Positions 9,875 to 13,697 of a stretch of DNA of 64,000 nt are shown piece by piece. Both the position numbers and the translations under genes were made by a program. This DNA is from Candidatus Latescibacterota bacterium (lineage in GTDB: Bacteria; JAAXHH01): contig JAJEHX010000028.1 of assembly GCA_022823465.1 (NCBI GenBank), positions 62,001 to 126,000 on the forward strand, in the 5' to 3' direction. How positions within the stretch are numbered: position 1 is the first letter of the stretch; every line of letters begins with the position of its first letter. Under the pieces are notes generated by a model. It searched no databases and was not told the origin of the DNA. It saw only the letters and a program-made list of their open reading frames with translations.

Positions 9875-11668
9875 ATGTATCATCATCGAAAGCACGGACG
9901 CATTGCAAAACCGGCCCGCGGCCTGGCCCTCATCGTCCTCATCCAGCTGGCCACCCTGACGGCCTCCGCCCAGTACATGCCGGTCGGCCCCGACGACGTG
10001 GTCGACCTCTCGCCGGTCATTTCAGGCCGCCACTACCAGTACTGGCCGGGCGGCCAGGTGCACCACCAGCCCCTCGTCGTGCCGTATATCGTCCATGGCG
10101 GCCGCCCGTGGGCGTCGGACCTGATCATCCTGGACGAGAACACGGCGACGCAGACGGATACCCCGGCCCACATGATGCCGCCCCAGCACAGCGGTCTGCC
10201 TAACGCCCACTACTGGGGCGATCTGACGGTGGAGAAAGTCCCCGCCTGGCAGCTGGTGGGCGAAGTGTACAAGATCGACGGCCGGTCCATGCTGGACCAG
10301 GCGCCCCCGGGAGTGAGCCCCCTGTTCACGCTGGAGCGGGTCAGGGCCGCCGAGGCCGCCCACCGGCCCATGGGCCCTGGCGACGCCGTCCTCTACTGGA
10401 GCGGGTATGACGACCGGCACGACCGGCCCGCGCCGGCTGACCGGCGCCTGATCGTCGATCCGGTCGCGGGTTCGGTCCCCGGATGGCCCGCGCCGGACTA
10501 CGACGCGGCGGAATACGTGGGCAGCCGGGGAGTCTGGCTGATGGGCATCGACAGTCCGAGCATGGGCGGGCTGGGTTCCCCGAAGTACAGTGCGCAGGGT
10601 CCCCAGGGCATGTTCGAGAATCCCCTCGCCTTGGAAAGCCATCTCGGCCACTTCAAGTACGGGGCCGTCCACACGGAGGGGTTGATCAACCTGGACAAGA
10701 CGCCCGACGGTTCGGTGTACATCGCCCTCCCCGTGAAGCACGAGAACTCCCCCACGGTCGAAACGCGGGCCGTCGCCATCACGAACCCGGCGCTGGCCTC
10801 GCGGCTGCTCGAGGCCGTGAAGGCAAAAAGGGTGGTGGACCTGTCCGTCACGCTCTCCATGGAGCATCCGGTCTGGTGGCCCGGCCGCGGCGTGGGCCGC
10901 CACGTCTTCCCCTATTCACGGGTACAGCCCGTAAACTACTTCGACGGACCCTTCGGACCGTACTGGGTCAACACCCACATCATGGACGCCCATACCGGGA
11001 CCCACGTGGACCCGCCGGCGCACTACGGCCCGCCGCCCGGATTCGACGTCGCCGGGTACGACGAGACGACCCGCGCGGCGCTTCGGGACTTCGAGGCCGC
11101 GCACGGGCCGCTGAAGCGCACGGAGATGACGACGGACAAGGTCCCGCTGCACCACTTCATGGGACCCGCCCGGGTCGTCAACGTACAGCACCGCGTGGGG
11201 ACGGCCCCGCGGGAAGACTGGCCGGCGTCGCCGGCGATCACGGTGGATGACGTGCTAAGGTACGAAGAACTGCATGGAGGAATCGAGGCCGGCGAGGTCG
11301 TGCTCTTTCACACGGGCCATACGGACGCCCACTTCCGCCGCTTCGAGCGGGGCCGCGTGGACCAGAGCGTCAAGGGACCCCTGGACGGGCTGTCCGAGGG
11401 CTGGCCGGCGCCGGGTGCGGAAGTCATCGCCTACCTGGCCGAAAAAGGCGTCAGGCACGTGGGCATCGATGCGCCCGACATGGGGTCGGTGGACCCGGTC
11501 GAATCGATGAAGACGCACTGGGCGGCGGTGAACCACGACATGATCTTCACGGAGTATCTGCTTGGCGTGGGGCAGCTTCCGCCTAAAGGCGCCTTCTACG
11601 TCTTCCTGAATCCCCGGCTCGAAAACAACCACGGCGGACCGGGCCGGGCCATCGCCATTCTGCCGTAA
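9875..11668 (+). CDS. Exported double-domain cyclase family protein (kynurenine formamidase-like)
   Basis: The 597-residue protein has an N-terminal signal sequence (positively charged start, then LALIVLIQLATLTASAQ) and two tandem cyclase/formamidase domains (about 45-310 and 320-597). Domain two has the canonical metal motif HTGTHVDPPAH. Domain one has NTATQTDTPAH, in which the first two histidines are replaced by Asn and Gln, so its metal site is altered or belongs to the Gln-type subgroup. The family hydrolyses amide or lactone bonds with zinc or manganese. It is probably periplasmic. A synonymous duplicate of its last ten codons follows the stop. The substrate is unknown. Confidence 0.85.
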   Translation: MYHHRKHGRIAKPARGLALIVLIQLATLTASAQYMPVGPDDVVDLSPVISGRHYQYWPGGQVHHQPLVVPYIVHGGRPWASDLIILDENTATQTDTPAHMMPPQHSGLPNAHYWGDLTVEKVPAWQLVGEVYKIDGRSMLDQAPPGVSPLFTLERVRAAEAAHRPMGPGDAVLYWSGYDDRHDRPAPADRRLIVDPVAGSVPGWPAPDYDAAEYVGSRGVWLMGIDSPSMGGLGSPKYSAQGPQGMFENPLALESHLGHFKYGAVHTEGLINLDKTPDGSVYIALPVKHENSPTVETRAVAITNPALASRLLEAVKAKRVVDLSVTLSMEHPVWWPGRGVGRHVFPYSRVQPVNYFDGPFGPYWVNTHIMDAHTGTHVDPPAHYGPPPGFDVAGYDETTRAALRDFEAAHGPLKRTEMTTDKVPLHHFMGPARVVNVQHRVGTAPREDWPASPAITVDDVLRYEELHGGIEAGEVVLFHTGHTDAHFRRFERGRVDQSVKGPLDGLSEGWPAPGAEVIAYLAEKGVRHVGIDAPDMGSVDPVESMKTHWAAVNHDMIFTEYLLGVGQLPPKGAFYVFLNPRLENNHGGPGRAIAILP

Positions 11669-11776: not shown

Positions 11777-12355
11777 TCACGAATCGTCCGCGTCCCGTCC
11801 TACCCCCAGGGCGTCTGCGACGCGGTTGATATAATTGAACCAGGACGCGATCAGCGTGATCTGGAGAATGGCGACGTCGTCGAACCCCACGGACCTAAGG
11901 CCGTCGAGATCGGTCTTCCGTATTTGCGTGGCATCCTCGGTAAGGCGGATGGCGAAATCCAGCATCGCCCGGTCCTGCGCGCTCAGCGGCGCCTTTTCGT
12001 AGTCGTACTTGATCACTTCGACCAGTTCGCTGTCCAACGTGACCCGACGCAGAAACTCTGCGTGCGAATCAATTCAGTAGACGCATCGGTTTCTCGACGA
12101 AACGATGGTCGAAATCATCTCGTGCTGCCTGCGGCTCAGCGGCAGGTCCGGCGACAGCAACACCCCGAAGGTGGCGAAGGCGTGGTGCAGCGCTTCCGGG
12201 ATCAGCGAATGGGACGCCACGATGCCGGAAGTGCCGTCGTCGGTGGGGTGCACGGGCGTGTCGTACTCCGCGGGATAGAGCGCGCGCTGTGCCTCGAGGG
12301 CGGCGAGCAGCCGTTCGTCCCCATCGCTCGCGGAGACGGTTTTAATCCAGGCCAT
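11777..12355 (-). CDS. Probable AhpD-like peroxidase-related selenoprotein (TGA = Sec94)
   Basis: Read through an in-frame TGA (12076-12074), this frame encodes 192 residues of the carboxymuconolactone decarboxylase/AhpD peroxidase-related family. The AhpD catalytic pattern is complete if TGA is selenocysteine: E79, C91-V-Y-U94 and H98, with the spacing of E-(11)-CxxC-(3)-H. Sequence after the TGA continues as a typical family member ([23 protein letters not shown] and [17 protein letters not shown]). A six-base-pair hairpin begins 10 bases after the TGA, a position suited to a bacterial SECIS. The gene starts inside the end of the amino-acid permease gene (14-base overlap). The expected role is thiol/selenol peroxide or alkyl-hydroperoxide reduction. 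The alternative is a nonsense mutation. Confidence 0.78.
12047..12076 (-). promoter_or_regulatory. Candidate bacterial SECIS hairpin with the Sec TGA
   Basis: On the minus strand, ten bases after TGA the sequence ACGCAG-AGTTT-CTGCGT forms a perfect 6-bp stem with a 5-base loop. The loop lies 16 bases from the TGA and has G as its second base, matching the known bacterial SECIS rules for spacing and loop G. Confidence 0.6.
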
Positions 12356-13697
12356 GGTTTTCTCCTATCCGACTTTGCTGCATGGATTGATTTCGAAAGA
12401 CGAGTAAGTACACCGGTATACCCAGGGCGGTCACGCCTACGCCCAGCATGGCCTGCAGCGGACTGTTGCCGAAGAGCAGCACGAGCAGGACCGCGGCGAG
12501 GAGCAGGAACAGAACCGGCGTGACGGGGTAGAACGGAGTCCTGTACGGAGGCGTATCGGCCGCTTTGCGGCGGATCACGAAGAGGCCCGCCACGGTGAGC
12601 GCGATGAACAGTACGGCCACGAAGATGAAGTAGTCGAGGATCTGGCTGAAGGTCCCCAGCCACACCAGCAGCGAGGCCAGCCCGCCCTGGATGGCGATCG
12701 CGCGGTAGGGCGTGCCGAAGGCGGGATGGACCGCGCCGGCGAAGCGGAGGAAGACCCCGTCCCTGGCCATGGCGAAATACACGCGAGGGGCCATCAGTAA
12801 CAGCCCCGTCAGGCTGCCGACGATGGACAGGATGACCACGGAGGAAAACAGGATGCCGCCGCTGCGGCCGAAGAGCACTTCGCCCGCCTGCGCCGCGAAG
12901 GTCTCGTCGCTGGTGACCTGCGAGACGGGCACGAGATACATGAAGACGGCGCTGGTGGAAATGTAGGTCAACGCGACGATGCCTACGGCCATCAGCAGTG
13001 CCCGGGGCAGGATTCTCGCCGGGTCCCGGATTTCTCCGGCCACCTTGTTCAGGTCCCACCATCCGGCAAAGGCAAAGAAGGCGCCCACGATGCCGCCGGC
13101 GAGGGCGCCGAACAACGGACCGGAGTCCGCCGGCCGGTCCACGAAGGGTGTGAAGTTCGACCAGTCGCCGAGTCCCAGGCCGAACCCCAGCAGGGAGATG
13201 ACTGCGAGGACGCCGACTTTGAACACGGTCAGCAAGACGATGATCCAGGCGCCGATGCGCACGCCGTAGATGTTTACGCCTGTGAGGACAAGAAGCACGG
13301 CGATGGCCAGCAACTTCATCGCGACCGTTTCCATCGAATAGATGTGACCCGCGTAACTCGCCAGTCCGGTCGCGAGGGTCGCCGTGATGCCGGGATCCAG
13401 CACCATCAGGGACATCCAGCCGTACAGGAAGGCCGTCGGGGTGCCGTAGGCTTCGCGGAGATAGATGTATCCGCCGCCCGCGTGGGGATAACGGGAGGCG
13501 AGTTCGCCGAAGCACAGCGACCCGCACAGGGCCATCCCCGCCATAGCCAGCCAGATGACGAGCAGCAGCAGGGGCGATCCCAGGGACTTGGCCATCCCGG
13601 CGGGCACCAGGAAGATGCCCACGGCGATCATGCCGCTGATCACCATGGCCGTGGTCGGCCAGATACCCAATTGGCGGCGCAGGTTAGCCGTGGTCAT
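12342..13697 (-). CDS. APC-family amino-acid permease
   Basis: The 451-residue protein has about twelve hydrophobic segments and the amino acid-polyamine-organocation signature early in TM1 (MVISGMIAVGIFLVPAGMA). It then shows GELASRYPHAGGGYIYLREAYG, typical of bacterial amino-acid transporters. It is an inner-membrane protein that probably takes up or exchanges amino acids. The gene is directly upstream of the selenoprotein gene and overlaps it by 14 bases, so the two are likely co-transcribed and translationally coupled. The substrate cannot be assigned. Confidence 0.9.
   Translation of the reverse strand: MTTANLRRQLGIWPTTAMVISGMIAVGIFLVPAGMAKSLGSPLLLLVIWLAMAGMALCGSLCFGELASRYPHAGGGYIYLREAYGTPTAFLYGWMSLMVLDPGITATLATGLASYAGHIYSMETVAMKLLAIAVLLVLTGVNIYGVRIGAWIIVLLTVFKVGVLAVISLLGFGLGLGDWSNFTPFVDRPADSGPLFGALAGGIVGAFFAFAGWWDLNKVAGEIRDPARILPRALLMAVGIVALTYISTSAVFMYLVPVSQVTSDETFAAQAGEVLFGRSGGILFSSVVILSIVGSLTGLLLMAPRVYFAMARDGVFLRFAGAVHPAFGTPYRAIAIQGGLASLLVWLGTFSQILDYFIFVAVLFIALTVAGLFVIRRKAADTPPYRTPFYPVTPVLFLLLAAVLLVLLFGNSPLQAMLGVGVTALGIPVYLLVFRNQSMQQSRIGENHGLD

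Follow-up and report, generated by a model that had tools for sequence, protein, structure and literature searches.

The 64-kb stretch of DNA analyzed here (the window) very probably contains a gene in which UGA at codon 94 specifies selenocysteine (Sec), under the guidance of a SECIS hairpin, within an AhpD-like protein of the TIGR01926 type that is likely a peroxide or disulfide reductase (probability of this explanation as a whole, about 0.96). For the recoding part, the comparative sequence evidence is strong. A first-pass annotation of the same DNA had proposed an AhpD-like selenoprotein with a CxxU motif, and the selenocysteine machinery of the genome, the Sec or Cys codons of homologues at position 94, and the SECIS all speak for that reading.

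The recoded frame

When its internal TGA is translated as a residue, the gene encodes a protein of 192 residues that begins with MAWIKTVS (Table 1). The 192-residue AhpD-like open reading frame of the first-pass annotation thus stands; the annotation had given no strand, which proved to be minus. The motif C91-V-Y-U94, accompanied by E79 and H98, is found in the read-through translation as had been described. The remark that the gene would otherwise appear as two unrelated fragments is fair for annotation with the standard code, since neither half of the frame, searched singly, has a Pfam match. The joined 192-aa protein matches the CMD/AhpD family PF02627 at 32.5 bits (cutoff, 23) and the NCBIfam "peroxidase-related enzyme" TIGR01926 at 116.2 bits, above the curated cutoff of 81.8, and its alignment to solved homologues shows no break across residue 94.

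TABLE 1 Positions in the window of the putative selenoprotein gene, its signals, and the adjacent permease gene
Feature	Positions	Strand	Basis
Putative AhpD-like selenoprotein gene, CVYU, TIGR01926/COG2128 type (ATG, 12355-12353; terminal TGA, 11779-11777)	11777-12355 (read 12355→11777)	-	Read-through translation, TIGR01926 score, codon 94 of homologues
In-frame UGA (codon 94), predicted Sec94	12071-12073 (read 12073-12071)	-	Aligned with Cys in L079 and distant homologues; tRNA-Sec in genome
Predicted bacterial SECIS upper stem-loop, ACGCAGA-GUU-UCUGCGU	12044-12060	-	Fold, synonymous freeze, compensatory change in paralogue, published constraints
APC/L-type amino acid permease gene, upstream, sharing 14 nt with the start of the selenoprotein gene	12342-13697	-	PF13520, TIGR00911, adjacency

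Codon 94 in homologues

Homologues were collected with six peptide patterns, none of which touched codons 86 to 104, and the matching was done with Cys at position 94. This yielded 110 homologous loci, a redundant set in that some genomes are present in two collections. Codon 94 was TGA in 105 of these loci and a Cys codon (TGC or TGT) in the other five, so that, judged from these sequences, TGA at this position is far beyond chance. After removal of duplicates, 87 distinct main-family homologues (64 to 99% identity) remained, of which 86 have TGA and one, L079, has TGC. Their records are labeled Latescibacterota, Gemmatimonadetes (Gemmatimonadota), Acidobacteria (Acidobacteriota), and KSB1, and the TGA form is present in the source genome and in all 11 other genomes of the genus. 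Since the search patterns avoided codons 86 to 104 and Cys was used at 94, neither the TGA nor the frozen hairpin described below was selected for, which speaks against ascertainment bias.

Conserved sequence lies on both sides of codon 94. Immediately downstream, H98, A99, E100, F101, L102, R103, and R104 are invariant, and in 25 sequences E79, C91, Y93, U94, and H98 do not vary except for the exchange between Sec and Cys. Close relatives ending at the TGA, which would have counted against the proposal, were looked for among these homologues, and none does so. A nonsense mutation, pseudogene, or sequencing error, with translation truly ending at the TGA of a decaying gene, has in its favor that a stop formally interrupts the frame. 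However, the same TGA is shared by 86 of the 87 distinct homologues over four phyla, and beyond it both frame and sequence are maintained; this conservation across independent assemblies refutes such an origin, which we consider extremely improbable.

The same genome carries a second AhpD-like CxxU selenoprotein paralogue (L145:907-1509, plus strand, in G000:C27) with the sequence NECEYUVRHHGE and, downstream of its TGA, a separate hairpin unlike that of the main gene; this TGA is shared across the genus, family, and order. A crude scan for readthrough frames elsewhere in the window revealed no convincing second selenoprotein; it can miss cases, its overlap filter having also discarded the gene described here.

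Selenocysteine machinery

The first-pass annotation had noted that a genome lacking selenocysteine machinery would argue against its reading. In the source assembly (3.86 Mb, 98% complete), selA, selB, selC (tRNA-Sec), and selD are all present. Downstream of the selB match (350 bits), at ~160 bases, lies the tRNA-Sec (70.6 bits; ARAGORN type SeC, anticodon TCA), and selA scores 491.8 bits. The selD gene encodes an Ndh-SelD fusion, in which SelD follows a pyridine-nucleotide-disulfide oxidoreductase domain (the TIGR03169 and TIGR00476 scores both exceed their cutoffs); such fusions are already known (PMC2398784).

Because the tRNA-Sec model also gives weak scores to tRNA-Ser, only high scores were counted. 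Among 26 genomes tested (25 TGA carriers and that of L079), 21 had a tRNA-Sec of at least 65 bits, and the five with weaker scores all had selA above the cutoff, so that one or the other was found in 26 of 26. In a set of 59 kin and distant genomes, selA was above the cutoff in every genome with the TGA form except G012, a TGA carrier of the same family in whose fragmented genome the sole trace of selA is a piece of its C-terminal part at the edge of a contig; its incomplete selA is probably an assembly loss. Three of the four genomes in this set whose sole homologue is a distant Cys form are without selA.

The complete Sec apparatus bears on a second alternative, namely, general reassignment of UGA (e.g., to Trp or Gly) or plain readthrough without Sec. 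Although this alternative would likewise have the UGA read through, the gene's own terminal stop is TGA, the residue that replaces Sec in homologues is Cys rather than Trp or Gly, and a SECIS accompanies the apparatus. We reject reassignment on these grounds and regard its chances as negligible.

A second, divergent SelA-like protein is encoded elsewhere in the genome (L147; G000:C51:51800-58200). It scores 182.7 bits, below the selA cutoff, is conserved in the genus, and is clustered with a SelD/HypE/ThiL-like protein and a TIGR04282 glycosyltransferase.

A nearly frozen SECIS hairpin

If the main reading is correct, SelB and Sec-tRNA-Sec would decode UGA at codon 94 under the direction of a SECIS hairpin that lies within the coding sequence, 11 nt further downstream. 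The first-pass annotation had drawn a 6-bp stem with a 5-base loop 10 bases after the TGA (ACGCAG-AGUUU-CUGCGU), with SECIS-like spacing and a loop G, and folding the RNA bore out each of these features; a 7-bp stem that closes a GUU loop and begins 11 nt past the UGA describes the structure better. The RNA downstream of the UGA has a minimum free energy (MFE) of -17.8 kcal/mol, compared with a mean of -9.3 for shuffled sequences (z = -3.9), and only 1 of 200 shuffled sequences folds as well. Published constraints on bacterial SECIS elements comprise a loop of 3 to 9 nt, a stem of 4 to 16 bp, a G in the first two loop positions, 16 to 37 nt from UGA to loop, and an MFE of ≤-7.5 (PMC13188914). 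The hairpin falls within all of them (3-nt GUU loop, 7-bp stem, G first, 17 nt, and -17.8 kcal/mol), and A-G-U-U-U fits the N-G-U-N-N loop pattern of the published bacterial model (PMC13188914).

The hairpin is also under strong synonymous constraint. Codons 98 to 102 (CAC GCA GAG TTT CTG) are identical in 86 to 87 of the 87 distinct homologues, whereas flanking codons vary, with six codons used for R104 and four for S97. Mean codon entropy in this set is 0.33 bits over codons 97 to 103, versus 1.32 bits elsewhere (P = 0.0003), and of the 114 columns, the six with the lowest entropy are those of codons 98 to 103, with a tie between codons 103 and 175. A diverged paralogue in the same lineages forms another hairpin at this position, and in L130 and L134 its pair 17-27 has changed from C-G to G-C, a compensatory exchange. 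The SECIS assignment draws mainly on the synonymous freeze; the covariation evidence by itself is modest because it comprises one pair in two related sequences. No further copy of the core was found in the source genome, even with one mismatch allowed, and the nine matches of the 17-nt core in a viral collection are most likely due to chance.

An apparent Sec-to-Cys change in L079

The single distinct homologue with TGC (L079:3001-3570) comes from a Latescibacterota metagenome-assembled genome labeled Baikal-deep. Since L079 branches within the Sec clade (support of 97/95 for a fork of 72 rows) and its hairpin core is identical, letter for letter, the simplest reading of the sequences is a recent replacement of Sec by Cys. 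Its genome retains tRNA-Sec and selA, and a search of that genome for another copy of the selenoprotein gene found none. A base-call error could also produce the TGC and keeps a small probability; against it, neighboring codons differ too. L079 seems to have switched from Sec to Cys recently while retaining the RNA signal, and it should be useful for studying selenoprotein loss.

Gene neighborhood

The upstream permease (PF13520, 196.5 bits; TIGR00911, 209 bits, which is below that model's cutoff) and the selenoprotein gene form a probable operon. Of 68 loci with enough upstream sequence, 20 keep this adjacency, and they span Latescibacterota, KSB1, Gemmatimonadota, and Acidobacteriota; in the remaining 48 loci, which come mostly from Terriglobia and other Acidobacteriota, no upstream permease was found. 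A common downstream gene, long-chain acyl-CoA synthetase-like by eye, is shared by 31 loci that are mostly of the Terriglobia type. The link between permease and selenoprotein is suggestive only.

We also considered that the hairpin might have a second role beyond SelB recruitment, such as mRNA control, and that the permease and selenoprotein might form a coupled unit, for example for the uptake and reduction of an amino acid-like substrate. A second role would explain both the near-frozen sequence over four phyla and the letter-for-letter retention in the Cys-coding L079; the combined proposal is speculative, and we think it improbable.

Convergent with the selenoprotein gene, the plus strand of the window (9875-11668) encodes a 597-aa protein with two PF04199 putative-cyclase stretches as tandem domains.

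Fold, active site, and likely function

The active site has the spacing Glu, Cys +12, Tyr +14, Cys/Sec +15, His +19, and thus E79, C91, Y93, U94, and H98 match the proton relay of PA0269 (E36, C48, Y50, C51, and H55); the same spacing occurs in Mycobacterium tuberculosis AhpD (E118, C130, H132, C133, and H137) (PMC3141380). An AF2 model (pLDDT, 79.5; pTM, 0.76) has as its best fold matches Deinococcus radiodurans AhpD (6k40) and "peroxidase-related" structures, with TM scores of 0.67 to 0.74 for the top chains. Because of this relay spacing and these fold matches, a peroxide or disulfide reductase is the function best supported by homology. The protein would adopt the all-helical AhpD/CMD fold, with C91 and U94 as a selenenylsulfide-type redox pair and E79, Y93, and H98 as the proton relay; it would most likely reduce a peroxide or disulfide and be recycled by a cellular thiol donor.

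A selenoprotein with other chemistry on the CMD/AhpD fold, e.g., a reductive dehalogenase or a thiol-disulfide oxidoreductase, is less likely, although it merits consideration. The fold library also returned the debrominase Bmp8 (6ohi/6ohj; TM score, 0.66 to 0.69), a reminder on the same fold to be careful about substrate, and the neighbors are not those of classical AhpC-type peroxide defense, being an amino acid permease here and other genes elsewhere. Yet the closest sequence and fold matches are "peroxidase-related" or AhpD proteins, and the AhpD proton-relay positions are all filled as in PA0269. The closest solved homologues are mostly uncharacterized in activity, several being named "uncharacterized peroxidase-related protein." A peroxide or disulfide reductase remains our preferred assignment, as a prediction from homology.

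Comparison with known families

The case for this selenoprotein is clean and well supported; standard annotation would split it into two fragments. Its carriers are uncultured and soil lineages in which selenium use is little described. In at least four bacterial phyla the family is conserved together with its RNA signal, and it illustrates the extent to which a SECIS can fix the codons that lie within it.

Among solved structures, the peroxidase-related proteins 2pfx, 3c1l, 6k40, 2oyo, and 2prr are homologous over approximately residues 62 to 185 and share the fold; the three that were aligned (2pfx, 3c1l, and 6k40) have CxxC, with Cys in place of Sec. M. tuberculosis AhpD (1knc and 1gu9) shares the Glu/Cys/Cys/His relay and its spacing but is a weak fold match, and its His132 corresponds to Tyr in the selenoprotein. 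The protein is not a member of the classical AhpD subfamily TIGR00777 (18.8 bits; cutoff, 191.95). Nor does it belong to NF041238 (AhpD_rel_CFYUT, alkylhydroperoxidase-related [seleno]protein), which has a related AhpD domain with CxxU but is longer (357 positions) and gives a score of 53.9 against a cutoff of 175.

The novelty implied by the first-pass annotation does not hold, as AhpD-like CxxU selenoproteins have been known since 2005, when 27 of COG2128 were reported from the Sargasso Sea (PMC1088965). The 2008 GOS study, where the type is named "AhpD-like 1," reported 299 (PMC2398784), and a 2026 catalogue lists an AhpD-like protein, TIGR01926, with CxxU (PMC13188914). The present protein belongs to this COG2128/TIGR01926 family by score and has the same CxxU and the same bacterial SECIS class, the likeness to the Sargasso entries being judged by family, motif, and SECIS class. 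To this known family, our analysis adds its spread over Latescibacterota-type bacteria, Acidobacteriota, Gemmatimonadota, and KSB1, a hairpin that is nearly invariant, and a permease link that crosses phyla.
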